64,000 bases of DNA, from contig NZ_LT670844.1 in assembly GCF_900141755.1 (NCBI RefSeq), positions 4,340,001 to 4,404,000 of the forward strand, given 5' to 3'. This DNA comes from Bradyrhizobium lablabi (GTDB taxonomy: Bacteria > Pseudomonadota > Alphaproteobacteria > Rhizobiales > Xanthobacteraceae). The notes below the pieces were generated by a model. That model did not search any database. It was not told where the DNA came from and saw nothing but the letters and a program-made list of their open reading frames with translations. The position numbers were made by a program, and so were the translations under genes. This document shows, in pieces, positions 10,317 to 53,858 of the stretch (position 1 is its first letter; each line of letters starts with the position of its first letter).

Positions 10317-10348
10317 TTCGGCGGGTTCTCAAAGCTTCGGAGTATCGA

Positions 10349-11813: not shown

Positions 11814-13118
11814 TCACACATGCACCGCGGTGCGGACGCGGCCGGCGTCGCCGAAGACGCGCAAATAGCGCTCCACTTCGGACGCGCTGCCGGTGGCCTT
11901 TTCCGGATTGTCCGAGAGTTTCACCGCCGGCCGGCCGTCGACCGATGTCACTTTGCACACGATCGAGATCGGATCGAGATCGACCGAACCGTCCGGCGCG
12001 CAGCCGACGAAATCGTTGGTCAGGTTGGTGCCCCAGCCAAAGCTGATCCGCACCCGCCCGGCGAAATGCCGAAACGTCTCCTCGATCGATCCGACGTCCA
12101 TGCCGTCGGAGAACACCAGGAGTTTTTCCTTGGGATCGCGGCCCTTCTGCTTCCACCATTTTATGATTTCTTCGCCGGCCGAGATCGGCGGCGCGCTGTC
12201 GGGGCGAAAGCCGGTCCAGTCCGCTACCCATTCCGGCGCGTCGCGCAGGAACGATTTGGTGCCGAAGGCGTCGGGCAGCGCGATCAGAAGATTGCCGCCA
12301 TAGGTATGACGCCATTGATCGAGGATACGATACGGCGCCCAGCGCAATTCGGTGTCGTCGTTGGCGAGCGCGGCCGCCACCATCGGCAATTCATGCGCGT
12401 TGGTCCCGATCGCTTCCAGATCATTGTCCATCGCCAGCAACACATTAGAGGTGCCGGTGAAGGAGGGGCCGAGGCCTTCCTTGACGGCCTCAACGCACCA
12501 GCGTTGCCACAAAAATCCGTGGCGGCGGCGGGTTCCGAAATCCGAAAGCCTCAAGCCTTCCAATTTGCGCAGCCGCTCGACCTTGCTCCACAGCTTTGCC
12601 TTGGCGCGGGCATAGAGCACGTCGAGGACAAAGCGCCCTTGGCCTTTCATCACCTGGCGCGAGCGCAATTCGTTGAGAATGGCGAGTGCCGGAATCTCCC
12701 ACATCGTGGTGTGGGTCCATGGCCCATGAAAATGCAGTTCGTACTGGCCGTCGACCTTGTGCAGCTCATATTCGGGCAGGCGGAAGTTGCTAAGCCAGTT
12801 GATGAAGTCAGGCGAGAACATCTGGGTCTTGCCGTAGAAGGTATTGCCGGCGAGCCAGATCAGCTCCTTCTTGGAAAAGCGAATGGTGCGGGCGTGATCG
12901 AGCTGGGCGCGCAGTTCGCCCTCGTCGATGATTTCGGCAAGCCGCACATGCCGCGAGCGGTTGATCACCGAAAAGGTCACCTGCTGATTCGGATAAAATT
13001 CCCGAATCATTTGCTGCATCAACAGCTTGTAAAAATCGGTATCGAGCAGGCTGCGCACGATCGGGTCGAGCCGCCAGCCGTGATTGTAGGTACGCGATGC
13101 GATATCTGTGACTGCCAT
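11814..13118 (-). CDS. pncB: Nicotinate phosphoribosyltransferase
   Basis: This 434-residue enzyme joins nicotinate to PRPP to give nicotinate mononucleotide, the first step of the Preiss-Handler NAD salvage route, in the cytosol. The N-terminal [12 protein letters not shown] matches the family's conserved substrate-loop region, and the length equals that of rhizobial PncB. The ATG at 13118 ([12 protein letters not shown]) was chosen; 18 extra residues from an upstream start do not fit. It is placed 60 bases after the 3' end of a nicotinate-dehydrogenase-like operon on the same strand, so salvage and breakdown of the same vitamin may be linked here. pncA lies at 59996. Confidence 0.93.
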
Positions 13119-13178
13119 ACTGAAACTGTATCGCGCCGGAAGCCATGCAACCAGTGGGTTTTGGCCGGGCATGGCAGG

Positions 13179-16100
13179 TCAGCGCGTAACCCCTTGTCGG
13201 GCTTGGCGAATGGCGCCCGCTACCCCGGTCCAGGCCGGCTTGTCGGGGGCGAATTGCTGCCGCAGATACGCCACCAGTTCGGCGATCTGGGCGTCGGTCA
13301 TGCTGTCCTTGAAGGCCGGCATGTAGCCGAGATCGCTCGAGGCTGGAACGGCGATGCCGTGCAGGATCACCTGGATCAGATTGTCGGGAACAGCGCTGTG
13401 CAGATTGCTGTTCAGTGCCAACGACGGCCGGCTGCCGAACAGCGGCGCGCCGCCCACCGCATGGCAAACCGCGCAGGCGCCTTCATAAAGGCGCACGCCG
13501 ATCGGCGAGGCCGAGACTGCCCGGGTGCCGGTTGAGGTTTCAAGTTTCGCGGCGAGGGCGTCCTGTGCCGCCCTGTAGATCGCGTTCTCGTTGAACGAGG
13601 CGAGATAGACCGCCATGGCGCGGATGTCCTGATCGGGTAACGCCGCAAGCTCCTTCACCACCGGTGCCATCGGGCCCGCGGCGACGCCGTGAAAGCGGGA
13701 TTCTCCCTTGCGCAGATAGGCAAACAGTTCGTCCTCGCTCCAGGGGATCGGCGCGTGCGACAGCGAGGTCAGCGGCGGCGCTTCCCAGCCTTCCGCGAAA
13801 CCGCCTGCGAGATAGGCCTTTGCCGTCTCAGCCCCGAGCGCATTGCGCGGCGAATGGCAGGCGCCGCAATGGCCAAGGCCTTCGACCAGATAGGCGCCGC
13901 GATTCCATGTCTCCGACTTCGTCGCGTCGGGTTCGAACACGGTTGCTTGGTGGAACAGCGCATTCCATCCCGCCATTAGCGGACGCAGATTGAACGGAAA
14001 CGCCAATGTGTTCTTTGGAGTTACGGCGCGCACTGGCGACTGCGCCATCACAAAAGCATAGAGCGCCTGCAGGTCGGCATCGATGGCCTTGGCGAAATGC
14101 GGATATGGAAATGCCGGATAGAGATGCCTCCCGTCGCGGTGAATGCCTTCGCGCATCGCGCGCTCAAAGGCGGGATAGGACCATGCGCCGATGCCGGTTT
14201 CGACGTCGGGGGTGATGTTGGTTGAGTAGATCGTGCCGAACGGCGTTTCGATGGCGCGGCCGCCGGCATTGATCGCGCCGTTCGCGTCGGTGTGACAGAC
14301 CGCGCAGTCGCCGAGCGCGGCCAATTGCCGGCCGCGCGCGATGGTCGCTTGCGAATAGGTCGACGCTTCAGGCCGCGCGATCGGCGCGATCGCTCGCCAA
14401 GGCAGCACGGCGGTTCCGATGCCAACCACCGCAGCACATAAAGCCGCAACGGTTGCGAGTACGCCACGACGCTTTGCAAATGGATTTTGCCATTTGTCGC
14501 TCGAAGCCGCCAGCGTCGGGGCCGCCAACGATGTTACGCTGGGCGCCGCCTGCTGTTCGCCGTGCAATCCCCGGAGAATGCGTTCCGGCGTGAACGGCAA
14601 TTCGCGAAACCGCACGCCGGTGGCATCATAGATGGCGTTGGCAATGGCCGCTGCACTCGGGACGGAGGCGGATTCGCCGACGCCGAGCGGCGGCTGATCC
14701 TGGCGCGGCAGCATCAAGACGTCGATTTTTGGCAATTCAGGAAATTTGATGATGGGGTAGGCGCCCCATTCGCGGCTCGTCACGAAGCTGCGGTCGAATG
14801 AGACTTCCTCCATCAGCGCGCGGCTCGTCGACTGGATGACGTTGCCATGGATCTGGTGGCGGACGCCGTCCGGATTGATCATCAGCCCGGAATCCTGACC
14901 CGCGACCACGCGCGTCACGCTGACATCGCCGGTCGCCTTGTTGACGGCGACGTCGGCGATCCAGGCCGACCACGCCGCGCCATAACCCGGAAACTTGCTG
15001 TGCACATAGAGCGCGTAGGCAAAGCCGCGCCCACGCACGATGTCGCCTTCGGCTTTGGGTTCTTGCCGGTGCGGACGTGGAGTCCAGCCGGCGCGCTCGG
15101 CCACCGCGTTGACGAGATCGACCGCGCGAGGGTCCTTCAAGTAACGCAGGCGATATTCGATCGGATCGACGCTGGCCTCAGCGGCGAGTTCGTCGATATA
15201 GGATTCATGCGCAAACGTGTTCGGCAATGCCGAGACGCCGCGCAGCCAGGCCGCGCGGACGATAGGCGGCATGTCGTGCACGACTACACGCATGGTGTCG
15301 TAATCGTAAGGCGGGATCGCGGTGCGGTCGCCCATCTCGAATACGTCCGCGATCGGCGCGATCGTGCCGGTCAGCAGCAATGCCAAAGTCGGCGCGCCGT
15401 TGGATGGATAGCGTGTGGCAAAATCGTAGCCCGCGACGCTGCCGTCCTCATTCAACCCGCCCTTGACGTCCATCAGTTGCGCGGCGCCCTTTGGCTCCCA
15501 GGCGTGCTCCTGTTCGCGCGTCAATTGCACGCGGACGGGCCGGCCGGCCGCGCGCGATAGAAGCACCGCGTCGGCTGAAACGTCGTCGGCGCAGTTCCGG
15601 CCGTAGCAGCCGGCGGCCTCCATCCGGATCAAATCGATGTCGGTCTCCGGGCGCGCCAGCAGCAGCGCGAGATCGGCGCGCAGGAGGTGGGGATTTTGCG
15701 TGCCGGACCACACCTTGATGTGCCCGTCCTGATAGTCGGCGACAGCGCAGGACGGACCGATCGAACCGTGCATCTGGTAAGGCCAGATGTAGGTCCGTTG
15801 CATCGGCTTTGCGGCGGCGGCAATGGCAGCATCGACGTCGCCCTTGTCGATCAGGGTCCGCGGCGTTGAGGGATTGGCGCGCAGCGCGGTGGCGACGTCC
15901 TTGAGATCGGGCAAATTCGGCGTCGGCTTCCATGTGACCCGAAGCTGTGCCGCCGCCTTGATCGCGTTTTCCTCGCGCTCGGCGATGACGCCGACGAAAT
16001 CGCCGATCGTGACGACGGCGACCAGTCCCGGAATATCGCGCACCGAGGTTTCGTCGACCGCGATCAGGCTGGTGCCGACAAAAGCGCCGGCATCGACGCC

Positions 16101-16736
16101 GGCATAGGGCGGACGCACGACGCGGCCATGCAGCATGCCGGGCACGCGGACGTCGTGGACATAGACCAGTTCACCGGTCGCTTTTGCCGGCAGATCGACG
16201 CGCGGCTGCGATTGCCCAACGATGGTGTAGGCATTCACCGGCTTCACCGGCACATCTTCGGCAAGCTCGAGCCGGATGGTCTCGCCGGCAATCAATTCGC
16301 CGTAGCTGACGCTGCGGTTGTCGCGCCCGCGGATCAGGCCGTCCTCGATTGTGAGGTCTTCAACGGGAAGCTCAAGCCGCTCCGCGGCGCGCGCGATCAA
16401 AAAACGCCGCGCCTGGGCCGCGGCGTTGCGCAGGGGAACCGCCGTGATCTGGATCGTTTCGCTCGCAATCGTCGCGCCCTGATTGGGTACGCGCGAAGTA
16501 TCGCCGAGCACGACGACGACGCGCGCAAAGGAGACGTCGAGTTCTTCGGCGACGATCTGTCCGAGCGCAGTGCGGATTCCGGTGCCGAGGTCGACATGCC
16601 CGTTGAAGGCGGTGACCGACCCATCAGCCGTGATCTTGACAAAAGTTTCGAACGTGCCGTCCGACCCGGCCGGGCGCACCACCGACAGTGCGCCGGCGAG
16701 AATCGTGCGATTGTCCGGAGAGCCTGGCGCGGCCAT
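13179..16736 (-). CDS. nicB: Nicotinate-dehydrogenase-like molybdenum hydroxylase large subunit fused to a triheme cytochrome c domain
   Basis: This 1185-residue protein joins a molybdopterin-binding domain (about 1-740, catalytic E688 in GVGESAS) to a C-terminal part with three c-type heme motifs: CAVCH at 811, CGACH at 957 and CAVCH at 1088. A hydrophobic segment near residue 770-790 precedes the hemes and may anchor them at or across the membrane. Pseudomonas NicB, which hydroxylates nicotinate to 6-hydroxynicotinate and sends electrons to cytochrome c, has the same architecture and nearly the same length. The partner FeS gene is immediately upstream with a TGATG overlap, and there is no FAD subunit, as in NicAB. 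Divergence from a 6-hydroxynicotinate reductase homologue supports the call. Related aldehyde or isoquinoline oxidoreductases cannot be excluded. Confidence 0.75.
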   Translation of the reverse strand: MAAPGSPDNRTILAGALSVVRPAGSDGTFETFVKITADGSVTAFNGHVDLGTGIRTALGQIVAEELDVSFARVVVVLGDTSRVPNQGATIASETIQITAVPLRNAAAQARRFLIARAAERLELPVEDLTIEDGLIRGRDNRSVSYGELIAGETIRLELAEDVPVKPVNAYTIVGQSQPRVDLPAKATGELVYVHDVRVPGMLHGRVVRPPYAGVDAGAFVGTSLIAVDETSVRDIPGLVAVVTIGDFVGVIAEREENAIKAAAQLRVTWKPTPNLPDLKDVATALRANPSTPRTLIDKGDVDAAIAAAAKPMQRTYIWPYQMHGSIGPSCAVADYQDGHIKVWSGTQNPHLLRADLALLLARPETDIDLIRMEAAGCYGRNCADDVSADAVLLSRAAGRPVRVQLTREQEHAWEPKGAAQLMDVKGGLNEDGSVAGYDFATRYPSNGAPTLALLLTGTIAPIADVFEMGDRTAIPPYDYDTMRVVVHDMPPIVRAAWLRGVSALPNTFAHESYIDELAAEASVDPIEYRLRYLKDPRAVDLVNAVAERAGWTPRPHRQEPKAEGDIVRGRGFAYALYVHSKFPGYGAAWSAWIADVAVNKATGDVSVTRVVAGQDSGLMINPDGVRHQIHGNVIQSTSRALMEEVSFDRSFVTSREWGAYPIIKFPELPKIDVLMLPRQDQPPLGVGESASVPSAAAIANAIYDATGVRFRELPFTPERILRGLHGEQQAAPSVTSLAAPTLAASSDKWQNPFAKRRGVLATVAALCAAVVGIGTAVLPWRAIAPIARPEASTYSQATIARGRQLAALGDCAVCHTDANGAINAGGRAIETPFGTIYSTNITPDVETGIGAWSYPAFERAMREGIHRDGRHLYPAFPYPHFAKAIDADLQALYAFVMAQSPVRAVTPKNTLAFPFNLRPLMAGWNALFHQATVFEPDATKSETWNRGAYLVEGLGHCGACHSPRNALGAETAKAYLAGGFAEGWEAPPLTSLSHAPIPWSEDELFAYLRKGESRFHGVAAGPMAPVVKELAALPDQDIRAMAVYLASFNENAIYRAAQDALAAKLETSTGTRAVSASPIGVRLYEGACAVCHAVGGAPLFGSRPSLALNSNLHSAVPDNLIQVILHGIAVPASSDLGYMPAFKDSMTDAQIAELVAYLRQQFAPDKPAWTGVAGAIRQARQGVTR

Positions 16737-17218
16737 CAATCTTGCGCCTCGGCGAGGTGGCCTGCCGCCCGCATCGCGGCGCGCATGATTTCGATATGCG
16801 CGCCACATCGGCACAAATGGTAGTGCAGCGCTTCTTCAATCTCCGCCTTGGATGGCTTCGGGTTGCGCAGCAGCAGCGCCTTGGTGCTGATGATCATGCC
16901 GTTGAGGCAATAACCGCATTGCGCGGCCTGTTCCTTGATAAAGGCGTCCTGCACCGGGTCGGGATGTTCGCGCGAGCCCAGGCCCTCCAGCGTTACGATC
17001 TCGCGCCCGACGCAGCCATCGATCGGGATCACGCAGGCGCGCGCCGCGACGCCGTCGATCAGCACGGCGCAAGCGCCGCATTCCCCTAGCCCGCAACCGT
17101 ATTTCGGCCCGTTCAATTCGAGATCGTTGCGTAGCACGTAAAGCAGCGCGGTATCAGGGTCGGCGCTGACATCATGAATCCGGCCGTTAACCGTCAGGCG
17201 GATCGTGGTCTGCGTCAT
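16736..17218 (-). CDS. nicA: Nicotinate-dehydrogenase-like (2Fe-2S) subunit
   Basis: This 160-residue protein carries two [2Fe-2S] clusters: C42, C47, C50 and C62 for the first, and C101, C104, C136 and C138 for the second. It would relay electrons from the molybdenum site to the heme domain of the partner. The ATG at 17218 has GGGA eight bases upstream; an ATG two codons earlier (17224) is also possible. Its stop overlaps the nicB start by one base. The promoter region upstream holds a perfect 16-base palindrome exactly between a -35-like and a -10-like hexamer, so the operon is probably repressed in the absence of an inducer. Confidence 0.78.
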   Translation of the reverse strand: MTQTTIRLTVNGRIHDVSADPDTALLYVLRNDLELNGPKYGCGLGECGACAVLIDGVAARACVIPIDGCVGREIVTLEGLGSREHPDPVQDAFIKEQAAQCGYCLNGMIISTKALLLRNPKPSKAEIEEALHYHLCRCGAHIEIMRAAMRAAGHLAEAQD

Positions 17219-17275
17219 GCTCATGGTCCCGGACGGACGTTTAAGTCGCAAACATCGCGGTTCAAACCCGCTGCA

Positions 17276-17303
17276 AAGATACCGTTTGTATACAAACGTG
17301 CAA
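17276..17303 (-). promoter_or_regulatory. Predicted nicAB promoter
   Basis: On the minus strand, TTGCAC (17303-17298) and TATCTT (17281-17276) are separated by 16 bases. The spacer is almost entirely the palindrome at 17283-17298. The predicted transcript start near 17269 is about 50 bases before the nicA ATG. Confidence 0.55.
17283..17298. promoter_or_regulatory. Operator palindrome A (nicAB side)
   Basis: CGTTTGTATACAAACG is a perfect 16-base palindrome with 7-base arms around AT. It fills the spacer of the predicted nicAB promoter, where a bound dimer would block RNA polymerase. Similar sites occur at 17434-17450 and 53841-53858. The form fits a GntR or MarR family dimer; the MarR-type gene at 25432 is the nearest candidate. 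Confidence 0.7.
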
Positions 17304-17405
17304 GCCGCCGCTTCCGCGCTGCAACGCCTTGCCCGGTTTGTGAACAGACATCGTGGGCAATTTGCGCTTTTATTCGGCAGCGGCGTTTTTCGCTCCCAAC
17401 GACGC

Positions 17406-17434
17406 TTGACAGGTTTTCACAACGCGCGCAACAT
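17406..17434 (+). promoter_or_regulatory. Predicted promoter of the 6-hydroxynicotinate reductase operon
   Basis: A perfect TTGACA (17406-17411) is followed after 17 bases by CAACAT (17429-17434), a weak -10. The operator-like palindrome at 17434-17450 begins at the end of the -10 and covers the expected start site, a normal repressor position. The leader to the ATG at 17561 would be about 120 bases. Confidence 0.5.
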
Positions 17435-17450
17435 CGTTTGTATACGAACA
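17434..17450. promoter_or_regulatory. Operator palindrome B (hnr side)
   Basis: TCGTTTGTATACGAACA is an imperfect inverted repeat around AT, with six of eight arm positions paired. It shares the GTTTGTATAC core of palindrome A and the GTATACGAA string found near 53861, and lies where it would cover the start site of the rightward promoter. Confidence 0.6.
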
Positions 17451-17560
17451 AAAAGCCCGGACGGCGGCAGACGGGATATTGAACGCGCCGCCACCCGAAA
17501 TTCGTTGATCATGCGTCGTTACTAATCCGACAGTTTGACGCTGGCTTTGAGAGCTTGTTC

Positions 17561-19021
17561 ATGCTGACCGAACCGACGAGCGCTGCCGCCGACGACAAGA
17601 TCCGCTGCGATGCCTGCCCTGTCATGTGCTACATCAAGCCGGGGGCAGCGGGCGCCTGCGATCGCTACGCCAATCACAATGGCGAATTGGTGCGCGTCGA
17701 TCCCCATATCGTGCTGGAGCGAACGGTGTCCCATGGCGGACGGCTGGTGCCGTTCCAGGCCACCGGTGATTGGGACGGCAAGATCGTCCACGAGCCCAGC
17801 GTCTTTGTCACGGCGATCGGCGCCGGCACCACCTATCCCGATTACAAGCCGGCGCCTTTCATCGTCTCCTCCGAGATCGACGGCGTCGACATGGTCACCG
17901 TGGTGACCGAAGGCATCTTCAGCTATTGCGGCGTCAAGGTGAAGATCGACACCGACCGTTATCTCGGCCCCGAGACCGCGACGGTCCGCGCGCAAGGCGA
18001 GGCGATCGGCCACGTCACGACCAGCGAATACGGCTCGCAGATGCTCTCGCTCGGCGGCGTGCATCATCTGACCGGCGGCTCGAAGAAAGAAGGCCGCGTT
18101 ACCTGCGACGCGTTAATGGATCTCAGCAATTGCAAGCCCGTCGAGCTCACGATCGACGGCGGCGCCACGGTGGTGGTGCAGGCCGGCTATCCGCCGATCG
18201 TCAACGGCGTCGCGGAAGAGCGCATGCGCGTCGGCTGCGGCTCGGCGACCATCGGCATGTTTGCAAAACAATGGCACGGCAAGGTCGATGAGGTCGTGGT
18301 GGTGGACGACCACATCACCGGCGTTCTCAGTGAACATCAGGCCGGCAAGCTCCTGGATATTCCCGACACCGGGATCAAGATGAAGGGGCGGCGTTCGACG
18401 CCGGGCCGGTATTTCCAGGTCGCCGAACCCGGCACGGGGTGGGGCGGCACCAAAATTTCCGATCCGCTCTCGGTGCTGGGTCCGTTCGATGCGAAGAAGG
18501 CGCGGCCCGGCATGACCATGCTGATGGTCTCCACGACCGGTGAGCATGCGGCTTATTACGAACTCGACGAGGCGCTGAGGCCTGTCGAGAAAGAGATGCC
18601 GGCCGACCTGAAATTCTCGGTCGAGCGGATCCAGGAGAATTGCGAACCGGCGCTGTGCACCGTGTTGTTCATGGGTGGCGCCGGTGGATCGCTGCGCGCC
18701 GGCGTCACCGACAATCCGGTGCGTCTGACGCGATCGGTGAAGGAGGCGCTGACGCGGGTGACCAGCGGCGGCGCGCCGGTCTATGTCTGGCCGGGCGGCG
18801 GCATCACCTTCATGGTCGATGTCACGCGATTGCCGGCCGGCGCCTTCGGCTATGTTCCGACGCCGGCGCTGGTGGCGCCGATCGAGTTCACGCTGAAACT
18901 GTCGGACTATGCGGCACTCGGCGGCCATATGGATCACGTGCGTCCGCTGGCGTCGCTGAAGGACAGCGCCGAATTCCGTCAGACGCTTTCCCCGCCATCA
19001 GCGGCGGGAGCGCGCGCATGA
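17561..19021 (+). CDS. hnr: 6-hydroxynicotinate reductase family protein
   Basis: This 486-residue protein matches the family of Eubacterium barkeri 6-hydroxynicotinate reductase, which uses reduced ferredoxin to turn 6-hydroxynicotinate into 1,4,5,6-tetrahydro-6-oxonicotinate. The N-terminus has a Cys cluster C16-x2-C19-x3-C23-x9-C33 (KIRCDACPVMCYIKPG) suited to an iron-sulfur centre. The rest is Gly-rich with no membrane segments, so it is cytosolic. The ATG at 17561 was chosen over a TTG two codons earlier. The stop overlaps the UPF0280 start (ATGA). It is divergent from a nicotinate-hydroxylase-like operon, and an enamidase homologue, the next step of the E. barkeri route, is at 52559. 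Family assignment is from remembered sequence features, not a search. Confidence 0.75.
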   Translation: MLTEPTSAAADDKIRCDACPVMCYIKPGAAGACDRYANHNGELVRVDPHIVLERTVSHGGRLVPFQATGDWDGKIVHEPSVFVTAIGAGTTYPDYKPAPFIVSSEIDGVDMVTVVTEGIFSYCGVKVKIDTDRYLGPETATVRAQGEAIGHVTTSEYGSQMLSLGGVHHLTGGSKKEGRVTCDALMDLSNCKPVELTIDGGATVVVQAGYPPIVNGVAEERMRVGCGSATIGMFAKQWHGKVDEVVVVDDHITGVLSEHQAGKLLDIPDTGIKMKGRRSTPGRYFQVAEPGTGWGGTKISDPLSVLGPFDAKKARPGMTMLMVSTTGEHAAYYELDEALRPVEKEMPADLKFSVERIQENCEPALCTVLFMGGAGGSLRAGVTDNPVRLTRSVKEALTRVTSGGAPVYVWPGGGITFMVDVTRLPAGAFGYVPTPALVAPIEFTLKLSDYAALGGHMDHVRPLASLKDSAEFRQTLSPPSAAGARA

Positions 19022-19929
19022 CGCGAACGCCGCAGATCGGGCTTTTGCCGGACGGCAGGCGGCTTCATCTGCAGGACGGTCCGATCGACCTGATCGTGGA
19101 GGCACGCGGCAGCGAGAGGGATTTGCGCAAGGCGTATGAGGCGGCCGCGCGGCGTTTTACCGGCTTGCTCGATGAACTCTGCAGTGAGTTGCCAATGTTG
19201 CGCCAGGCAGCCGATCCCAGGCGAAACCTGCTGCAAGGCGGCGTCGCGCGCCGCATGCATGATGCGGTGGCGCCTTATGCCGCCGATTGTTTTATCACGC
19301 CGATGGCCGCTGTCGCGGGCGCCGTGGCCGAAGAGATTCTCGGCGCGATGCTGGAAGAGGCACAGCTGACGCGCGCTTATGTCAACAATGGCGGCGACAT
19401 CGCGCTGCATCTCGCGGAGGGCGAGCATTTTGTGGTGGGCCTTGCGGAGCGGCCGGACGCATCCGGCTTGATGCGGACCATGATCATTGATGCCGGTGAT
19501 CCCTCGCGCGGCGTTGCCACCAGCGGCCGTCACGGCCGCAGTTTTTCGCTCGGCGTTGCCGACGCCGTCACCGTGTTGGCCCGAACTGCCTCGCAAGCTG
19601 ACGCGGCTGCGACCATCATTGCCAATACCGTCGATCTGCCCGGACATGCCGCCATCATCCGCTGTCCGGCAAACGACCTGCAGCCCGACAGCGACCTTGG
19701 CGCGCGGCTGGTCACACATAGCGTCGGCGAATTGTCAGCAGGCGAAATCGAGGATGCGCTTGAATCCGGTGCCGCCTGCGCGCGAAAGCTGCTCGCGGCG
19801 GGATTGATCGACGGTGCTGCCTTGCGGCTACAGGGCGAGATGGTCATCGTGGGGACGAAAGCGATGGAGATGCCGGGATTGCGCGCGCAGCTTCGCAAGC
19901 GTCCAATCGAAAGCGCGATGCATGCGTGA
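19018..19929 (+). CDS. UPF0280 family protein (ApbE-related)
   Basis: This 303-residue soluble protein belongs to UPF0280, a family structurally related to the flavin transferase ApbE. Recognisable blocks are NLLQGGVARRMHDAVAPYA near residue 72 and AYVNNGGDIALHLAEGE near residue 120, in line with an ApbE-like Gly-Gly-Asp motif. The function of the family is not established. The start codon overlaps the hnr stop by four bases, so the two proteins are probably made together. One inference is that it handles a flavin or another cofactor for the reductase; no direct sequence proof exists. Confidence 0.75.
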   Translation: MTRTPQIGLLPDGRRLHLQDGPIDLIVEARGSERDLRKAYEAAARRFTGLLDELCSELPMLRQAADPRRNLLQGGVARRMHDAVAPYAADCFITPMAAVAGAVAEEILGAMLEEAQLTRAYVNNGGDIALHLAEGEHFVVGLAERPDASGLMRTMIIDAGDPSRGVATSGRHGRSFSLGVADAVTVLARTASQADAAATIIANTVDLPGHAAIIRCPANDLQPDSDLGARLVTHSVGELSAGEIEDALESGAACARKLLAAGLIDGAALRLQGEMVIVGTKAMEMPGLRAQLRKRPIESAMHA

Positions 19930-19962
19930 GATCATTTACATCAGAGAACGAGGCGGACAACC

Positions 19963-20547
19963 ATGAGCGCGGTCATTCGCAAGATCGTCACCGTCGTCGA
20001 GGAAACGCGGCTGGAGATGGGGAAGACGGTTAACCCGCCAACGCGCCGCGCCGCGGCCATTGCCGTGATCGAAAACCCGTTTGCCGGCAAATATGTCGAA
20101 GACCTCTCGCCTTTGATCGCGATCGGCGAGGAACTCGGCGAGTTGCTCTCGAAAAAGGCGGTCGCGGCGCTCGGGATCGACGGCGCCAAGGCGCAAAGCT
20201 ACGGCAAGGCCGCCGCGGTCGGCGAAAACGGCGAGCTCGAACATGCGGCCGCGATCTTGCATCCCAAAATGGGCGCTCCGGTGCGGAAGGTATTGGGCAA
20301 GGGCGCGGCGCTGATTCCGTCGTCGAAAAAGCGCAGCGGGCCGGGCACGACATTGGACATTCCGCTCGGTCACAAGGATGCGGCGTTCGTGCGCAGCCAT
20401 TTCGACGGCATGGAAGTGCAGATCAACGACGCGCCCCGCGCCAACGAGATCATGGTGGCGGTCGCGGTCACCGACAGCGGCCGGCCGTTGCCGCGGGTCG
20501 GCGGCTTGACGGTTGCGGAAGTCAAAGGCGAGGACGGTCTACGGTAA
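19963..20547 (+). CDS. Amino acid synthesis family protein (PF06684, formerly DUF1185)
   Basis: This 194-residue protein fits PF06684, whose crystal structures show a variant of the chorismate-mutase fold; the role in amino acid metabolism was proposed from context only. Visible features are ENPFAGKYVEDLSPLI near residue 38, a Gly-Lys-Gly stretch (RKVLGKGAALIPSSKK) near residue 108 and DAPRANEIMVAVAVTDSGRP near the end. It lies 33 bases after the UPF0280 gene and 26 bases before an ABC binding protein, so it is in the hnr operon. Whether it acts on a ring-opening product or is a structural partner is unknown. Confidence 0.75.
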   Translation: MSAVIRKIVTVVEETRLEMGKTVNPPTRRAAAIAVIENPFAGKYVEDLSPLIAIGEELGELLSKKAVAALGIDGAKAQSYGKAAAVGENGELEHAAAILHPKMGAPVRKVLGKGAALIPSSKKRSGPGTTLDIPLGHKDAAFVRSHFDGMEVQINDAPRANEIMVAVAVTDSGRPLPRVGGLTVAEVKGEDGLR

Positions 20548-20573
20548 TTTTCTTTTGGACACGGAGGTAAGGG

Positions 20574-21779
20574 ATGCAAATTAGCAGATACTTCTTCGGC
20601 GCGGCATTGGCGATCATCGTTGCCGGCATGGCGAATACCGCCATGGCGCAGAGCGAAATCAAGATCGGCGAAATCAACAGCTACTCGCTGTTGCCGGCTT
20701 TTACTGAACCCTATCGCAAGGGCTGGCAGCTCGCGGTCGAGGAAATCAATGCGGCCGGCGGCATCAACGGCAAGAAGCTTGTCGTCATCTCCAAGGATGA
20801 CGGCGGCAAGCCCGCCGACGCGCAGACCGCCGCCAACGAGCTGGTGTCGAGCGAGAATGTAGCGATGCTGACCGGCACGTTTCTGTCCAATATCGGCTTG
20901 GCGGTGAGCGATTTTGCGAACCAGAAAAAGGTTTTCTTCCTGGCGGCCGAACCTTTGACCGACGCCATCACCTGGGCCAAGGGCAATCGCTACACTTTCC
21001 GCCTGCGCCCCTCGAACTACATGCAGGCGGCGATGCTGGCGGAGGCGGCGGCAAAATTGCCGGCAAAACGCTGGGCGACGATCGCGCCGAATTATGAATA
21101 CGGCCAGTCGGCGGTCGCGGTGTTCAAGAAGCTGATGTCGGAGAAGCGGCCCGACATCCAGTGGGTCGATGAGCAGTGGCCGCCATTCGGCAAGATCGAC
21201 GCCGGCCCGGTGGTGCAGGCGCTCGCCGCCGCCAATCCCGAAGCGATCCTTAACGTCACCTTCGGCGCCGACCTCGTCAAGTTCGTGCGTGAAGGCAACA
21301 CCCGCGGCCTGTTCAAGGATCGCACCGTGGTCTCGTTCCTGACCGGCGAACCGGAATATCTCGATCCCCTGAAGGATGAGACGCCGGAGGGCTGGATCGT
21401 CACCGGTTATCCCTGGTACTCGATCAAGACGCCGGAGCACGATGCCTTCCTCAAGGCGTATCAGGCCAAGTACAATGACTATCCGCGGCTCGGTTCGATC
21501 GTCGGTTACCAGACCATCAAGTCGGCCGCCGCGATCCTCGCCAAGGCCAACTCCACCGACCCCGAAAAGCTGATCGCGGCGACCGAAGGCTTGTCGGTGC
21601 CGTCGCCGTTCGGCGAGATCACCTTCCGCAAGATCGATCATCAGTCGACCTTGGGCGCCTTCGTCGGCAAGACTGCGGTGAAGGACGGCAAGGGCATCAT
21701 GGTGGATACCGCCTATCGCAAGGGTTCGGACTATCTGCCTGGTGATGCGGAAGTGGAGAAGCTGCGTCCGAAGGAGTGA
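20574..21779 (+). CDS. ABC transporter substrate-binding protein, branched-chain amino acid type
   Basis: This 401-residue periplasmic protein has a signal peptide ending at ANTAMAQSE (about residue 25) and the two-lobed Peripla_BP_6 fold typical of LivJ-type proteins (IKIGEINSYSLLPAF, then AVEEINAAGGINGKKL). A strong ribosome binding site (GGAGG) precedes the ATG. It is the binding component for the permease and ATPases at 22019-25394. The position in the hnr operon suggests the ligand is nicotinate, a hydroxylated pyridine or a related ring-opening product, not an amino acid. The gap to the permease gene is 240 bases of dispersed repeats. Confidence 0.88.
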   Translation: MQISRYFFGAALAIIVAGMANTAMAQSEIKIGEINSYSLLPAFTEPYRKGWQLAVEEINAAGGINGKKLVVISKDDGGKPADAQTAANELVSSENVAMLTGTFLSNIGLAVSDFANQKKVFFLAAEPLTDAITWAKGNRYTFRLRPSNYMQAAMLAEAAAKLPAKRWATIAPNYEYGQSAVAVFKKLMSEKRPDIQWVDEQWPPFGKIDAGPVVQALAAANPEAILNVTFGADLVKFVREGNTRGLFKDRTVVSFLTGEPEYLDPLKDETPEGWIVTGYPWYSIKTPEHDAFLKAYQAKYNDYPRLGSIVGYQTIKSAAAILAKANSTDPEKLIAATEGLSVPSPFGEITFRKIDHQSTLGAFVGKTAVKDGKGIMVDTAYRKGSDYLPGDAEVEKLRPKE

Positions 21780-21786
21780 GTCGATC

Positions 21787-21934
21787 TTCTCCCTCGCCCC
21801 GCTCTTGCGGGGAGAGGGTCGGGGTGAGGGGCCCTATCCGCAGATTCGGACACGCGGATAGTCCCCCTCACCCGGAGACTTCGCTATCGCTTCGTCTCCG
21901 ACCTCTCCCCGCAAGCGGGGAGAGGTGAAGGGGA
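21787..21934. repeat. Dispersed intergenic palindromic repeat, copy 2
   Basis: Arms ccccgctcttgcggggagagg and ctctccccgcaagcggggag (each a hairpin) bracket a spacer that differs from copies 1 and 4 and has its own small inverted repeat (ctatccgc/gcggatag). It interrupts the ABC operon between the binding-protein and permease genes and could lower downstream expression or stabilise the upstream mRNA end. Confidence 0.8.
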
Positions 21935-21938
21935 AGAC

Positions 21939-21982
21939 CTCATCCTGAGGAGCGGCCACTTGGCCGCGTCTCGAAGGATGAA
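21939..21982. repeat. Second dispersed repeat type (cctcatcctgagg ... cgaaggatga)
   Basis: This 44-base element has outer arms tcatcctgag and tctcgaaggatga and an inner ggccacttggcc hairpin. I recall the same pattern as a frequent intergenic repeat in Bradyrhizobium and Rhodopseudomonas genomes. It lies directly behind dispersed repeat copy 2. Confidence 0.65.
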
Positions 21983-22018
21983 GCAACTGCACTGAAACGC
22001 GCGCTAGCACGGATACAA

Positions 22019-23905
22019 ATGGCCTTTTACATCGTTCAGTTCCTGACCGGTCTTGCCAGCGCAGCGTCGCTGTTTCTGGTGGCCTCTGGGCTGTCGATCA
22101 TCTTCGGCGTCACGCGCATCGTCAATTTCGCCCATGGCGCGTTCTACATGCTCGGCGCCTACGTGGCGTTCACGCTGACCGAACGTTTTTCCGGCGCGAT
22201 CGGATTTTGGGGCGGCATCGTCGCCGCCGCGCTGGTGGTCGCGGCCGTCGGCGTGCTGGTCGAGATGGTGCTGCTGCGGCGGATTTATCACGCGCCCGAA
22301 TTGTTCCAGCTATTGGCGACTTTCGGCCTCACCTTGATGGTCGAGGACCTGGTGGTGCTGATCTGGGGGCCGAGCGACCTGCTCGGCCGCCGCGCCCCCG
22401 GGTTCAAGGGGGCGGTTGATTTCTTCGGCCAGAACATCCCGAGCTATGATCTGTTCCTGATCGTGCTCGGCCCGGTCGTTCTCGGCGTGCTCTGGCTGAT
22501 GTTCCAGCGGACGCGCTGGGGCGTGCTGGTGCGCGCCGCGACGCAGGACCGCGACATGGTGGCGGCGCTCGGCGTCAATCAAAAATGGCTGTTCACCAGC
22601 GTGTTCGCGCTCGGGGTCTTTCTCGCTGCTCTCGGTGGCGCGCTGCAGATACCGCGCGATGCGGTCAATCACGCGATGGATTTGCGGATCATCGTCGACG
22701 TCTTCGTGGTGGTGGTGATCGGCGGTCTCGGCAGCATCATCGGCGCCTTTGTCGCAGCCGTGCTGGTGTCGGAACTCAACGCCTTCGGCATTCTGATCTT
22801 TCCGAAGATTTCCATCATTCTCGTATTCCTTGTGATGGCCGCGGTTTTGATCGTGCGGCCCTGGGGATTGTTCGGCAAGCAGGAGGCTGCAGCGCGCCGC
22901 ACGCCGGGGCTCACTGTAAATCCCTGGCGTCCGCTGACGTCGAACGAACGGCTGGCGTCGATCGTCGCGCTGGCGCTGGCGGCGGCGCTGCCGCTGGTCG
23001 GCGGCAATTACGCGCTCACGGTCGGCTCGGAAATCGCGATCTTTGTCATTTTTGCCGCCAGCCTGCATTTCCTGATGTCGGTTGGCGGGCTCGCTTCGTT
23101 CGGCCATGCCGCCTATTTCGGGCTCGGCGCCTATGGCGTCGCGTTACTGGCAAAACTCGCCGGGCTGCCGATGATCGCTTGCCTGCTGCTCGGCCCGTTG
23201 CTCGGATGTCTCGGCGCCGCGGTATTCGGATTCTTCGCCGTGCAACTGTCTGGCGTTTACTTCGCCATGCTGACATTGGCCTTCGCCCAGATCGTATGGT
23301 CGATCGCGTTCCAGTGGGTCGAAGTGACCGGCGGCGATAACGGCATATTGGGAGTTTGGCCCGAGAAATGGGCGTCGAGCCCGTCGCATTTTTACTGGCT
23401 GTCGATCCTCGTCGCCGCGCTTGCGGTCGCAGCGCTCCGCATCCTGGTATTTTCGCCGTTCGGCTTCGCGCTGCGCGCGACGCGGGATTCGCCCTTGCGC
23501 GGTGAAGCCGTCGGCATCGACGGCAAGCGCATCCAGTGGACGGCTTTTGTCATCGCGGGCACTGTCGCCAGTATCGCCGGCGCGCTGTTTGCGTATCTCA
23601 AGGGCAGCGTGTTTCCGGACAGCCTCGGCATCTCGCTCTCGGTCGATGCGCTGGTGATGGTGCTGCTCGGCGGCGTCGAGACCGTCTCCGGCGCAGTCGT
23701 CGGCGCCATCGTCTACAAGGCCCTCAACATCTGGCTGGTGAGCCAGACCGATCTGTCAAAGCTCGTGCTCGGCGCTGTCATTGTCCTGATCGTGGTCGCC
23801 TTCCCCAAAGGCATCGTCGGGATGCTGGAGACGATCCGCAATCGCCGCCGCTCGTTGTCGCCAAAGTCCGCCCTTCTCAATTCCCGGATCGAGACCGCCG
23901 AATGA
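22019..23905 (+). CDS. Fused LivH-LivM branched-chain-type ABC transporter permease
   Basis: This 628-residue membrane protein joins two permeases that are often separate. The LivH half (about 1-290) has the typical start FGVTRIVNFAHGAFYMLGAY; the LivM half (about 310-610) has MSVGGLASFGHAAYFGLGAYG and RATRDSPLRGEAVGIDGKR. The linker near residue 285-310 is hydrophilic (KQEAAARRTPGLTVNP). One chain would supply the whole channel. The stop overlaps the ATPase start by four bases (ATGA). It follows the binding-protein gene after a repeat-filled gap and should serve the same transport system. Confidence 0.92.
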   Translation: MAFYIVQFLTGLASAASLFLVASGLSIIFGVTRIVNFAHGAFYMLGAYVAFTLTERFSGAIGFWGGIVAAALVVAAVGVLVEMVLLRRIYHAPELFQLLATFGLTLMVEDLVVLIWGPSDLLGRRAPGFKGAVDFFGQNIPSYDLFLIVLGPVVLGVLWLMFQRTRWGVLVRAATQDRDMVAALGVNQKWLFTSVFALGVFLAALGGALQIPRDAVNHAMDLRIIVDVFVVVVIGGLGSIIGAFVAAVLVSELNAFGILIFPKISIILVFLVMAAVLIVRPWGLFGKQEAAARRTPGLTVNPWRPLTSNERLASIVALALAAALPLVGGNYALTVGSEIAIFVIFAASLHFLMSVGGLASFGHAAYFGLGAYGVALLAKLAGLPMIACLLLGPLLGCLGAAVFGFFAVQLSGVYFAMLTLAFAQIVWSIAFQWVEVTGGDNGILGVWPEKWASSPSHFYWLSILVAALAVAALRILVFSPFGFALRATRDSPLRGEAVGIDGKRIQWTAFVIAGTVASIAGALFAYLKGSVFPDSLGISLSVDALVMVLLGGVETVSGAVVGAIVYKALNIWLVSQTDLSKLVLGAVIVLIVVAFPKGIVGMLETIRNRRRSLSPKSALLNSRIETAE

Positions 23906-24693
23906 GCACCGCGCCGACGCTATTGTCCGTCGAAAGCCTGAGCAAATCCTATGGCGGCGTCCATGCGGTGCGCGGCGTGTCGTTTGCGCTTCGAGCCGGC
24001 GAAATCCTGGCGCTGATCGGGCCCAATGGCGCGGGGAAAAGCACCTGCTTCGACATGCTCAACGGCCAGAATGTCCCCGACAGCGGCCGGATCCATCTGC
24101 TCGGCCAGGACACCACGGCCAAGAAGCCACGCGCGGTCTGGCGGCTCGGCGTCGGCCGCACCTTCCAGATCACCGCGACATTTCCGACCATGACAGTGCG
24201 CGAGAACGTCCAGGTCGCGTTGGTGTCGTATCACCGGCAGTTATTCAATCTTTGGTCTTCGACGCCGCGGTTTGCGCCGGAGGAGGCCATGCGCCTGTTG
24301 GAACTGGTTGGCATGGGCGGCTATGCCGAACGTCCCTGCGGCGAACTCGCCTATGGCGATCTGAAGCGGCTGGAGCTTGCGATCGCGCTCGCCAACCAGC
24401 CCAAACTGTTGCTGATGGATGAGCCGACCGCCGGCATGGCGCCGCGCGAGCGCATCGAGCTGATGCGGCTGACGGCCGGCATTGCGCGGGAAAAATCGAT
24501 CGGTGTGCTCTTCACCGAGCACGACATGGATGTCGTGTTCGAACACGCCGACCGCATTCTCGTGCTCAATCGCGGCACCTTGATCGCGGAAGGCTCGCCC
24601 GAGGAAGTCCGCCGCAACCCGCAAGTCCGCGCCATCTATCTCGGCGAGGGCCTGGTCTACGACGCCCGCCATCGCGAGGGAGCGAGCGCATGA
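23902..24693 (+). CDS. ABC transporter ATP-binding protein, LivG type
   Basis: This 263-residue ATPase has Walker A GPNGAGKST, Walker B LLLMDEPTAGMAP and the switch His in LFTEHDMDVVF. The signature motif is unusual: CGELAYGDLKRLELAIAL, where LSYG or LSGG is more common, but this form is frequent in LivG proteins. The ATG overlaps the permease stop and its own stop overlaps the livF-type start, so all three are translationally coupled. It is one half of the ATPase heterodimer. Confidence 0.92.
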   Translation: MSTAPTLLSVESLSKSYGGVHAVRGVSFALRAGEILALIGPNGAGKSTCFDMLNGQNVPDSGRIHLLGQDTTAKKPRAVWRLGVGRTFQITATFPTMTVRENVQVALVSYHRQLFNLWSSTPRFAPEEAMRLLELVGMGGYAERPCGELAYGDLKRLELAIALANQPKLLLMDEPTAGMAPRERIELMRLTAGIAREKSIGVLFTEHDMDVVFEHADRILVLNRGTLIAEGSPEEVRRNPQVRAIYLGEGLVYDARHREGASA

Positions 24694-25394
24694 AGCTAGC
24701 GGTCGAGGGACTCAATAGTCATTATGGCCCGGCGCACATCCTGTTCGACATCGCGCTCGAGGTCGGCGACGGCGAGGTGGTGGCGCTGCTCGGGCGCAAT
24801 GGCGCCGGCAAGTCCACGACCTTCCGCTCGATCGTCGGTCTGGTCGCGCAGCGCACCGGCCGCATCGTGTTCGAGGGCAAGGATGTCTCGAGCCAGCCGA
24901 CGCATGCGATCGTCAGCCGCGGGCTCGGTTATGTGCCGGAAGAGCGGCGCATTTTTACGGACCTGACGGTTGAGGAAAACCTCGAAGTCGGCCGCCAACC
25001 AATGAGGCCGAACGCACCGCACTGGACTCGGGAAAAATTATTCGCGCTGTTCCCGAATCTCGGCGAGATGCGCGGTCGTCCGGGCGGGCGTATGAGCGGC
25101 GGCGAACAGCAAATGCTGACCATCGCGCGGACCTTGATGGGCAACCCGTCGCTGGTGCTGCTCGACGAGCCCTCGGAAGGATTGTCGCCGAAGATCGTGG
25201 AGCAGATGGTCGACGCCATCCTGACCATGAAGAAGGAAGGCGTCAGCATCGTCGTGTCAGAACAAAACCTGCATTTCGCGCGGCTGATTTCCGACCGCGC
25301 CTACATCATCGAGCGCGGCCGCATCTGCTTTTCCGGCACCATGGCCGAGCTCGACGCGCGTCCGGACGTGCGAGACGCGCATCTGGCGCTGTGA
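24690..25394 (+). CDS. ABC transporter ATP-binding protein, LivF type
   Basis: This 234-residue ATPase has Walker A GRNGAGKST, signature MSGGEQQMLTIARTL, Walker B LVLLDEPSEGLSP and the switch residue in VVSEQNLHFARL, the Glu-Gln form typical of LivF. It pairs with the LivG-type protein. It completes a five-component importer (binding protein, fused permease, two ATPases) in the hnr operon. Confidence 0.92.
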   Translation: MKLAVEGLNSHYGPAHILFDIALEVGDGEVVALLGRNGAGKSTTFRSIVGLVAQRTGRIVFEGKDVSSQPTHAIVSRGLGYVPEERRIFTDLTVEENLEVGRQPMRPNAPHWTREKLFALFPNLGEMRGRPGGRMSGGEQQMLTIARTLMGNPSLVLLDEPSEGLSPKIVEQMVDAILTMKKEGVSIVVSEQNLHFARLISDRAYIIERGRICFSGTMAELDARPDVRDAHLAL

Positions 25395-25431
25395 TCGCAG
25401 GCGACGGGGCAAAACAGGGGCGGGAACGTAA

Positions 25432-25887
25432 ATGACCAGGAGTGTTTCGGCCAAACGGAGCTTAAAACCTGCGCGGCCCGGCTACATTCTCGACGAGCAG
25501 ATCGGCTTCATCCTGCGCCAGGTGTGGCAGCGCCACGCCGCGATCTTTGCGAAGGAAATCGGAATCAATCTAACGCCGACGCAATGGGCGGCGGTTTCAA
25601 AACTCGCCGAGACCGGGCCGTGCTCGCAGAATCAGCTCGGACGGCTGACATCGATGGATGTCGCGACCATCAAGGGCGTGATCGATCGGCTCACCGCGCG
25701 TGGCCTGACCGAGACCAGCGCCGATCCCGAAGACGGCCGGCGCCTCTTGGTCAGCCTGACGCGCGCGGGCCAGCAGGTCGCCGAAAAGGCGGCGCCGAAC
25801 GCGCTCGCGATCACGCGAGAAACGCTGGCGCCGCTCGACGCCAGGGAGCGCGAGACATTGATCGCACTGCTCAGCAAGCTGCGGTAA
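25432..25887 (+). CDS. MarR family transcriptional regulator
   Basis: This 151-residue DNA-binding protein has the winged helix of the MarR family: a dimerisation helix near residue 20-40 (IGFILRQVWQRHAAIF), the recognition region LGRLTSMDVATIKGVIDRLTARGL and the wing with TSADPEDGRRLLVSLT. It lies 37 bases after the transporter operon in the same direction. In Pseudomonas, nicotinate genes are controlled by a MarR-type repressor (NicR), so this gene is the natural candidate for the factor that binds the palindromes at 17283, 17434 and 53841. Binding is inferred from context only. Confidence 0.88.
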   Translation: MTRSVSAKRSLKPARPGYILDEQIGFILRQVWQRHAAIFAKEIGINLTPTQWAAVSKLAETGPCSQNQLGRLTSMDVATIKGVIDRLTARGLTETSADPEDGRRLLVSLTRAGQQVAEKAAPNALAITRETLAPLDARERETLIALLSKLR

Positions 25888-52558: not shown

Positions 52559-53755
52559 TCAATGCCCGACAATGACAGGCACTTTGGTGGCCGGCGGCGT
52601 ATTGCGGCTGCGCTGGGTGCGTACGATGCCGTCGATGATGGTCATGCCGACGCCGGGGAGATCGCCGAGCTGCACGCTGTCGAGGATGTTTTTCCCGGCT
52701 GAATGCTGCGCCCTGTCCATGATGACAAAATCGGCCGCGCGCCCGACTTCGATGAGGCCGCAATCCAGCGCGCGCATACGCGCGGTGTTGCCGGTCGCAA
52801 AGCAGAACGCGATTTCGGCGGGCACCTCGCCGAGCGACGACAACAGCGACACCATGCGCAGGATTCCGAGCGGCTGCACGCCGGAGCCGGCCGGTGCATC
52901 GGTGCCGAGGATGACGCGGCTGAGGTCACCCATCTCGCGCGCGATGCGAAGCGTGTAAAGCGCCGAGCGCTCATTGCCGTTGTGAACCAGCTCGAGGCCG
53001 CGCTTGCAGCCCTCGCAGATACAGCGGATCTGACTGTCGGGTAGCGCGGTGTGGCCGCCATTGATATGGCCGATCACGTCGGTGTCGGCTTCCAGCACCA
53101 CATCCTTGTCGATCAGGCCGGAGCCCGGGATAGAGGGCCCGCCGGTGTGGATGGTGCTCTGGATGCCGTATTTGCGCGCCCATCCGACCATCTTGCGCGC
53201 GGTCGGGCCATCCTTGACTCCGCCGAGGCCGACTTCGCCGAGCAGCTTTACGCCGGCCGCGGCGAGCTCCTTGAAATCCTCCTCGACCATTTCTGTTTCG
53301 ATGACGGGCGCGCCGGCATGAACCTTTACGCCGCCCGGACGCAGCGTCCAGAACGCGCGCTGCGCAAAGATCGCCATCGCCTTCAACCCGACGACGTCGC
53401 GCGGCCGACCGGGCATGTGCACCTCGCCGGCGGAAATCATGGTGGTGACGCCGCCATGCAGAAAACTGTCGATCCAGCCGATCTGGTTTTGCCGCGGCGT
53501 CCAGTCGCCGGCGACGGGGTGCACGTGGCTGTCGATCAGGCCCGGCGCAACCGTCGTGCCGTTGGCATCGACAATGGTGGTGGCGCCCTCGGCGTTGACG
53601 TCCTTGGCCCGCCCGATGGCGGTGATCTTGCCGTTTTCGGCGACGATCGTGTCGGCATCCAGGATCGGCTTCTCCATCGCGCCCGACAGCATCAGCCCGA
53701 CATTGCGGATCACGAGTTTGGTCGGGCCGGCGGCCTGGGGTTCGTCGTGGGCCAT
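52559..53755 (-). CDS. ena: Enamidase-like metal-dependent amidohydrolase
   Basis: This 398-residue protein matches the E. barkeri enamidase, which opens 1,4,5,6-tetrahydro-6-oxonicotinate to 2-formylglutarate. Recognised blocks are HGGVTTMISAGEVHMPGRP near residue 100, GGVKVHAGAPVIE at 141 and the C-terminal SRNTPPA. Metal ligands expected for the amidohydrolase fold are present: H77 and H79, E174, H203, H230 and D286 in GTDAPAG. The ATG at 53755 follows AAGGA; an earlier start adds 25 residues that do not fit. It is divergent from a ferredoxin-NADP reductase, with operator palindromes between them. The match is from memory and should be confirmed. Confidence 0.78.
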   Translation of the reverse strand: MAHDEPQAAGPTKLVIRNVGLMLSGAMEKPILDADTIVAENGKITAIGRAKDVNAEGATTIVDANGTTVAPGLIDSHVHPVAGDWTPRQNQIGWIDSFLHGGVTTMISAGEVHMPGRPRDVVGLKAMAIFAQRAFWTLRPGGVKVHAGAPVIETEMVEEDFKELAAAGVKLLGEVGLGGVKDGPTARKMVGWARKYGIQSTIHTGGPSIPGSGLIDKDVVLEADTDVIGHINGGHTALPDSQIRCICEGCKRGLELVHNGNERSALYTLRIAREMGDLSRVILGTDAPAGSGVQPLGILRMVSLLSSLGEVPAEIAFCFATGNTARMRALDCGLIEVGRAADFVIMDRAQHSAGKNILDSVQLGDLPGVGMTIIDGIVRTQRSRNTPPATKVPVIVGH

Positions 53756-53840: not shown

Positions 53841-53858
53841 TCATTTGTACACAAATGA
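53841..53858. promoter_or_regulatory. Operator palindrome C (ena/fpr)
   Basis: TCATTTGTACACAAATGA has perfect 8-base arms around AC. The half-site TCATTTGT differs by one or two bases from those at 17283 and 17434, so the same protein may bind. It lies midway between the divergent starts at 53755 and 53906. Confidence 0.7.

Follow-up and report, generated by a model that had tools for sequence, protein, structure and literature searches.

A stretch of 64,000 nucleotides from Bradyrhizobium lablabi (positions 4340001-4404000 of a single 7.9 Mb contig; hereafter the window, whose positions are used for all coordinates below) was found to carry the genes of a putative aerobic pathway for nicotinate degradation, in which a NicAB-type hydroxylase, a homologue of the 6-hydroxynicotinate reductase (Hnr) of Eubacterium barkeri, and an enamidase would act in succession. 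Taken as a whole, the observations are probably best explained by an aerobic nicotinate regulon that includes its own electron supply. The core route from NicAB through Hnr to the enamidase, with uptake by a Liv-type transporter, is very probable from the gene content. With more reserve, we favor an aerobic Hnr that lacks a 2[4Fe-4S]-type domain of its own and would be fed from NADPH through a ferredoxin-NADP reductase (FNR) and a soluble ferredoxin, a MarR-type palindrome coupling the FNR and enamidase genes to nicAB and hnr.

In the proposed pathway, nicotinate would enter the cell through the Liv-type transporter and be converted by NicAB to 6-hydroxynicotinate, with the electrons passing via the hemes to the respiratory chain, as expected from the family and anatomy of the enzyme. 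Judging from its homology to the E. barkeri cluster, Hnr would reduce 6-hydroxynicotinate to 1,4,5,6-tetrahydro-6-oxonicotinate (THON), with electrons that may pass from NADPH to the FNR (53906-54679), a soluble ferredoxin, and finally Hnr. The enamidase would then convert THON to 2-formylglutarate and ammonia, as suggested by the E. barkeri enamidase (PDB 2vun). A UPF0280 protein encoded next to hnr may place a covalent flavin on Hnr, and the palindromes would bring the FNR and enamidase genes under common control with nicAB and hnr. For the delivery of low-potential electrons to a pyridone reductase of the ferredoxin type in an aerobe, the window and its relatives suggest candidate parts, namely the FNR, the ferredoxin, and a common operator. 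The features of the window are listed below.

11814..13172, minus strand: PncB, nicotinate phosphoribosyltransferase (above cut-off for NCBIfam NF003704 and TIGR01514; start codon either at 13172 or at 13118)
13179..16736, minus strand: NicB-like molybdenum hydroxylase subunit with a fused triheme cytochrome c part (MoCoBD_1/2 and cytochrome c domains; CXXCH, GVGE)
16736..17218, minus strand: NicA-like 2Fe-2S subunit (Fer2, Fer2_2)
about 17283..17298, no strand: palindrome CGTTTGTATACAAACG, predicted MarR operator 1, kept in relatives
about 17435..17450, no strand: palindrome CGTTTGTATACGAACA, predicted MarR operator 2, kept in relatives
17561..19021, plus strand: Hnr, 6-hydroxynicotinate reductase homologue of 486 amino acids (41% identity to the E. 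barkeri gene)
19018..19929, plus strand: UPF0280 protein, weakly ApbE-like (NF003322 above cut-off, a model named 'hypothetical protein'; start overlapping the hnr stop codon)
19963..20547, plus strand: AA_synth (DUF1185) protein (PF06684, 6e-75; PDB 2qtp and 3byq)
20574..21779, plus strand: LivJ-type substrate-binding protein (PF13458)
22019..23905, plus strand: fused LivH-LivM permease, LivHM (two BPD_transp_2 stretches)
23902..24693, plus strand: LivG ATPase (open reading frame with start ATG at 23902, conserved position)
24690..25394, plus strand: LivF ATPase (open reading frame, conserved position)
25432..25887, plus strand: MarR-type regulator, predicted palindrome binder (PF01047)
52559..53755, minus strand: putative enamidase for THON ring opening and deamination (83% to the enamidase of a related stretch, L055, itself matching 2vun)
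53842..53857, no strand: palindrome CATTTGTACACAAATG in the enamidase-FNR gap, predicted operator 3, a variant of the nicA-hnr palindromes
53906..54679, plus strand: Fpr-type FNR, through which electrons are predicted to reach Hnr (above cut-off for PF00970 and PF00175)
59996..60622, plus strand: PncA-type nicotinamidase (NF008623 above cut-off)

Conservation of the nicotinate locus

The genes nicA, nicB, and pncB on the minus strand diverge from hnr, UPF0280, AA_synth, livJ, livHM, livG, livF, and marR on the plus strand. The original prediction for this region had described a NicAB-like pair with a three-heme molybdenum subunit of 1185 amino acids, divergent from an Hnr-led plus-strand operon with a full Liv-type transporter and a MarR regulator, and every one of these genes was located as claimed, with three CXXCH motifs counted in the molybdenum subunit. 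It had left the UPF0280 and AA_synth genes of the operon unnamed and had missed the enamidase, which lies beyond the region it covered. The same window also encodes a nicotinamidase, PncB, and an enamidase orthologous to that of E. barkeri, which supports the nicotinate reading.

Among 198 genomes sampled from the family, 58 encode Hnr, including the window's own, and 20-kb stretches were taken from 20 of the other 57. The full set of NicA, NicB, Hnr, UPF0280, AA_synth, LivJ, LivHM, LivG, LivF, and MarR was present in 19 of these 20 loci (the exception being L057); hence, the grouping of the genes is not due to chance. In a sample of the phylum, Hnr was found in 32 of 398 genomes, ten of which belong to the window's own genus. 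Hnr clusters also occurred on 26 plasmid records (H1-H26), mostly of Sulfitobacter and Rhizobium. In the stretches L103, L104, L106, L107, L118, and L119, a less related hydroxylase replaces NicAB, PncA adjoins, and only the second AA_synth paralogue was in view; plasmid matches of 70-71% suggest that these stretches belong to Rhizobiaceae.

Absence of the fused ferredoxin-type domain from Pseudomonadota Hnr

The original assignment of Hnr was borne out by an alignment with the protein at the hnr position of the E. barkeri cluster (L123), which showed 41% identity over query residues 14-478 (E 2e-92) and thereby homology across the whole core. No Pfam or NCBIfam model matched the window Hnr at E <= 0.001, and its named relatives were from Afipia and Bradyrhizobium. 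An alignment of 26 Hnr sequences contained 113 invariant columns, and the C-x2-C-x3-C-x9-C motif is kept in the window protein. N-terminal of this motif, two CxxCxxCxxxC motifs that form a 2[4Fe-4S]-type domain were observed in all eight E. barkeri-type Hnr proteins (seven from Bacillota and one from a deltaproteobacterial metagenome-assembled genome; L125 and L130, which are incomplete or broken, were left out). The same domain was absent in all 49 other Hnr proteins examined, which are from Pseudomonadota and include that of the window.

The E. barkeri Hnr contains one [2Fe-2S] cluster, two [4Fe-4S] clusters, and a covalent flavin, and its reaction is ferredoxin-dependent. If both [4Fe-4S] clusters are needed, the window-type Hnr would differ from the E. 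barkeri enzyme. We read the distribution of the CxxCxxCxxxC motifs as a likely exchange of the built-in ferredoxin domain for a separate FNR-ferredoxin relay.

Linkage of FNR and ferredoxin genes to the pathway

The window FNR includes both the FAD- and NAD-binding domains (PF00970 and PF00175, above cut-off), and its best NCBIfam match was to ferredoxin-NADP(+) reductase (1.5e-47), where a score of 162 bits, with the cut-off at 390, assigns the family and not the sub-type. Counts of FNR, ferredoxin, and the palindrome were made in 60 relative stretches totaling 1.07 Mb, with FNR counted from a match of at least 50%. An FNR was found in 26 of them, and in 24 of these 26, representing 24 different genomes, it lies less than 1 kb from the enamidase gene or hnr, as it does in the window. 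In L057, FNR follows Hnr-UPF0280, with NicAB, the enamidase, and AA_synth out of view. Five stretches (L052, L053, L056, L058, and L096) contain a ferredoxin gene 31-48 bp ahead of FNR and behind the palindrome, and L101, the sixth of the 60 with such a gene, contains one beside the enamidase. Two similar ferredoxins, at 77% and 67%, are encoded elsewhere in the window genome. From these gene neighborhoods, we infer an electron route from NADPH through FNR and ferredoxin to Hnr. The ferredoxin-linked character that the original prediction gave to the reduction gains genomic evidence in this way and stays putative.

Shared palindromes upstream of the nicotinate genes

Two palindromes were identified in the nicA-hnr gap, at about 17284 and 17436, and a variant in the enamidase-FNR gap at 53842. 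When two mismatches were allowed, the palindrome gave six strand-matches at three places in the window, the third of which (35676, two mismatches) is away from the nic genes; shuffles of the window gave a mean of 0.08, and none of 100 reached six. Within the 7.9 Mb genome, the pattern YRTTNGTNNACNAAYR occurs at five sites, three of them in the two nic gaps (two sites for the reversed-pattern control), and the narrower pattern RTTNGTATACNAAY occurs only at the two nicA-hnr sites (control 0).

In the 60 relative stretches, the pattern RTTNGTNNACNAAY was found at 72 sites, each of which was attributed to the closest gene head no more than 500 bp away, and 70 of the sites were upstream of nic genes. 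They preceded FNR in 23 cases (of 26 visible gene heads), Hnr in 21 (of 49), NicA in 19 (of 47), the enamidase in four (of 31), MarR in three (of 45), and PncA in none (of nine), while two were elsewhere. Base shuffles in 200-base blocks yielded a mean of 0.89 sites overall and 0.04 upstream, at most 1. In L101, L114, and L116, marR stands elsewhere and is itself preceded by the palindrome. The MarR protein is the obvious candidate for the binder of these sites.

UPF0280 and AA_synth

The gene for UPF0280 neighbors hnr in lineages that range from Bacillota to Betaproteobacteria. Among 35 aligned members, 22 match ApbE at E <= 0.01 (best 7e-7), and the GGD and D-x3-T motifs, which we take to be the functional motifs of ApbE-type proteins, were present: G125, G126, D127, and D195 are invariant and T199 is nearly so. 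The sole PDB relative at E <= 1 was 2o34 (7e-10, or 2.2e-15 using the alignment). Since the E. barkeri Hnr carries a covalent flavin, a role as a dedicated flavin transferase would be the most economical for UPF0280, and we give its attachment of flavin to Hnr an even chance. The protein is not claimed to be ApbE, and an ApbE-like function stays a candidate. Apparent Hnr-UPF0280 fusions (P0042, P0091, and P0114) were dropped as support for flavin transfer, as they resemble rearranged copies or joins produced by frameshifts.

AA_synth is present as a single copy in the window genome, and a second paralogue was seen in 35 of the 72 stretches scanned. That it helps the ring-opening and deamination step would be a guess. 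Both UPF0280 and AA_synth are conserved proteins, and they gain a concrete pathway context that extends from Bacillota to Betaproteobacteria.

NicAB-type hydroxylase and PncB

In the NicB-like protein, the three CXXCH motifs lie at residues 811, 957, and 1088. The protein also has a single GVGE motif, and its one strongly hydrophobic segment, at around residue 759, is located between the molybdenum part and the cytochrome part. The pair thereby has the anatomy of a NicAB-type enzyme, with a 2Fe-2S subunit and a molybdenum subunit fused to three c-type hemes; we take the architecture of Pseudomonas putida NicAB to be a 2Fe-2S subunit and a molybdenum subunit fused to cytochrome c. Downstream of nicB, pncB is read in the same direction and probably belongs to the same transcription unit; it adjoins nicB in seven of the 20 relative loci.

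The NicAB assignment of the original prediction was upheld by association, through the neighborhoods of NicB homologues on plasmids. An Azospirillum plasmid encodes a 64% relative of NicB beside a 2,5-dihydroxypyridine 5,6-dioxygenase, a monooxygenase, a hydrolase, an Asp/Glu racemase, an amidohydrolase, and MarR. Similarly, a Rhizobium ruizarguesonis plasmid encodes a 60% relative beside a similar monooxygenase and hydrolase set, without a gene annotated as 2,5-dihydroxypyridine dioxygenase. Therefore, a single type of hydroxylase seems to supply two different routes further down, and NicAB looks modular between the 2,5-dihydroxypyridine route and the reductive one.

Enamidase and possible alternative ring-opening enzymes

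The L055 enamidase matches PDB 2vun over its full length (2.7e-107, residues 12-395), and the window enamidase is 83% identical to the L055 protein and 45% to the E. barkeri gene. It is encoded 27 kb downstream of the nicotinate operon, divergent from the FNR gene. An amidohydrolase match of any degree was found in 153 of the 198 family genomes, and a match of at least 76% in 58 (two of them partial). Hnr and this close enamidase, each present in 58 genomes, occur together in 55, where about 17 would be expected if they were independent. Hnr alone was found in G059, G123, and G183, and the close enamidase alone in G116, G148, and G166. A 64% enamidase homologue also adjoins AA_synth in L087, from a genome without an Hnr match (G169), and perhaps acts on another cyclic enamide.

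Besides the family sample, 23 Hnr-bearing genomes (all 22 of the phylum sample from outside the family, and G123 of the family) were searched for the enamidase, with a match of at least 60% in eight and none in 15. A HyuA/HyuB-like pair of the hydantoinase/oxoprolinase type was found near Hnr in eight stretches without a visible enamidase (L057, L105, L107, L108, L109, L113, L115, and L118; HyuA alone in L109, L113, and L115), all of which come from the 15 enamidase-less genomes. For the other seven of the 15, the stretches examined showed no Hyu pair, or no 20-kb stretch was among the sample. HyuA/HyuB-like genes were found in none of the stretches showing an enamidase. This distribution suggests that, in some of the Hnr-bearing lineages, the HyuA/HyuB-type pair has taken the place of the enamidase in ring opening.

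Comparison with known nicotinate pathways

The E. barkeri cluster, which was found through its enamidase, has counterparts of four window proteins: Hnr (41%) is directly followed there by UPF0280 (33%), and the enamidase (45%) is directly followed there by AA_synth (57%). In contrast, its Hnr has the N-terminal 2x(CxxCxxCxxxC) domain that the window protein lacks, and no FNR match was found within 10 kb at an E limit of 1e-4, whereas the window has FNR beside the enamidase. The hydroxylase genes are split in this cluster; the nicotinate hydroxylase of E. barkeri is of a distinct kind, with four subunits and no hemes, and the downstream steps are fermentative.

In the passages of Shettigar 2012 (PMC3511419) that were examined, a nicotinate cluster is shown in Azorhizobium caulinodans and in Bradyrhizobiaceae, including Bradyrhizobium japonicum USDA110 and Rhodopseudomonas palustris HaA2. 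The same passages describe strain SG-6C, which carries the cluster and degrades nicotinate via 6-hydroxynicotinate; following a dechlorinase, the pathway also takes 6-chloronicotinate, in a setting of soil contaminated with the insecticide imidacloprid. The locus studied here is a further case of this published cluster type. The original prediction of an Azorhizobium-type nicotinate route in rhizobia is therefore supported by the genes of the locus, while its novelty does not stand, as the cluster was published in 2012 (PMC3511419). An Hnr homologue is likewise present in the published cluster, with that of SG-6C at 42% to E. barkeri as compared to 41% for the window. Unlike in the part of that publication considered, the window enamidase lies 27 kb off, is paired with FNR, and is tied in by the common palindrome. 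FNR, ferredoxin, or a missing ferredoxin domain of Hnr were not found mentioned in the examined passages of PMC3511419, and no prior report linking FNR or ferredoxin to Hnr was found in a limited literature search, which does not establish novelty. The THON route is described for E. barkeri and A. caulinodans in the consulted part of an Aspergillus paper (PMC9304392). In the P. putida nic pathway, as outlined in PMC3511419, 6-hydroxynicotinate is converted to 2,5-dihydroxypyridine, whereas in the window route it would be reduced.

Alternative explanations

Several observations weigh against the proposed electron supply and flavin transfer. Reductases of the Fpr type also have a role in the defence against oxidative stress. 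In L107 and L118, FNR lies 6-8 kb from hnr. Thirteen stretches contain an enamidase without FNR in view, and while the enamidase is near the stretch end in eight, it is well inside in the other five (L087, L093, L100, L102, and L112), no search for FNR in the rest of these genomes having been made; the FNR-enamidase linkage is not universal, because four of these five, all but L087, carry Hnr. No ferredoxin gene was found in 54 of the 60 relative stretches, nor near FNR in the window by a motif scan of the open reading frames. The palindrome pattern was read from the same related loci in which it was counted, which provides no independent test, the genome-wide search being closer to one. Additionally, the window UPF0280 protein scored 21.1 bits against Pfam ApbE, below the gathering cut-off of 25.6, and the UPF0280 profile matched the genome's own ApbE weakly, at 25% probability. 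The lack of an adjoining ferredoxin gene, the five FNR-less stretches, and the other roles of Fpr proteins would fit a published nicotinate cluster in which FNR is a mere neighbor engaged in general redox or stress defence and Hnr receives its electrons from a housekeeping donor or straight from NAD(P)H. We consider this unlikely in view of the placement of FNR within 1 kb of the enamidase gene or hnr in 24 genomes and the window, the 23 palindromes that precede 26 FNR genes, the position of FNR behind Hnr-UPF0280 in L057 even with NicAB, the enamidase, and AA_synth out of view, and the ferredoxin gene immediately ahead of FNR in five stretches.

It is far less probable still that the substrate of Hnr and its partners is a different pyridone or N-heterocyclic acid, with a secondary link to nicotinate. 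Such a substrate would be consistent with the width of the family, the loci that swap NicAB for a less related hydroxylase, the HyuA/HyuB-like pair where the enamidase is out of view, and the Hnr-UPF0280-FNR arrangement without NicAB in L057. However, the window holds PncB, PncA, NicAB, and the enamidase together, several of the divergent loci also have PncA alongside, and SG-6C, with the published cluster, uses nicotinate via 6-hydroxynicotinate according to the examined part of PMC3511419. Scarcely more probable is that the NicB-like protein, with its fused cytochrome, is an oxidoreductase of the aldehyde or isoquinoline type that shares this architecture: the NicA- and NicB-like proteins reached no NCBIfam equivalog cut-off, and in the PDB the cytochrome part was matched best by an aldehyde dehydrogenase cytochrome subunit, but the NicB-like gene accompanies Hnr in 19 of the 20 family loci, and its 60-64% homologues stand on plasmids where the neighbors are 2,5-dihydroxypyridine dioxygenase or a similar monooxygenase and hydrolase set. 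For the preferred nicotinate regulon with its own electron supply, a further-reaching account is offered tentatively, as somewhat doubtful in its entirety: Hnr would be a rewired anaerobe reductase whose fused domain was replaced in trans by an NADPH-FNR-ferredoxin relay, which the regulator of the pathway would switch on along with the enamidase, UPF0280 would be its dedicated flavin transferase, and a HyuA/HyuB-type pair would open the ring where the enamidase is absent.

Neighboring genes

The region just before PncB (231-11335) includes an NMT1/SsuA-type transporter set, an amidase (1110-2519), and a CO-dehydrogenase-like hydroxylase set (3394-7345), where the amidase was named from a profile match and the other labels were read by eye from the open reading frames. 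Beside the enamidase and FNR, the region 54701-58610 contains a second molybdenum hydroxylase pair (55321-55836 and 55833-58610) and a small open reading frame with a CXXCH motif. Weak NicA/NicB-like matches were also observed near the enamidase-FNR genes in L081, L082, and L086. Adjoining the nicotinamidase gene, an AmiC/AmiR-like pair, composed of a substrate-binding sensor and an ANTAR antiterminator, was found at 60813-62620.

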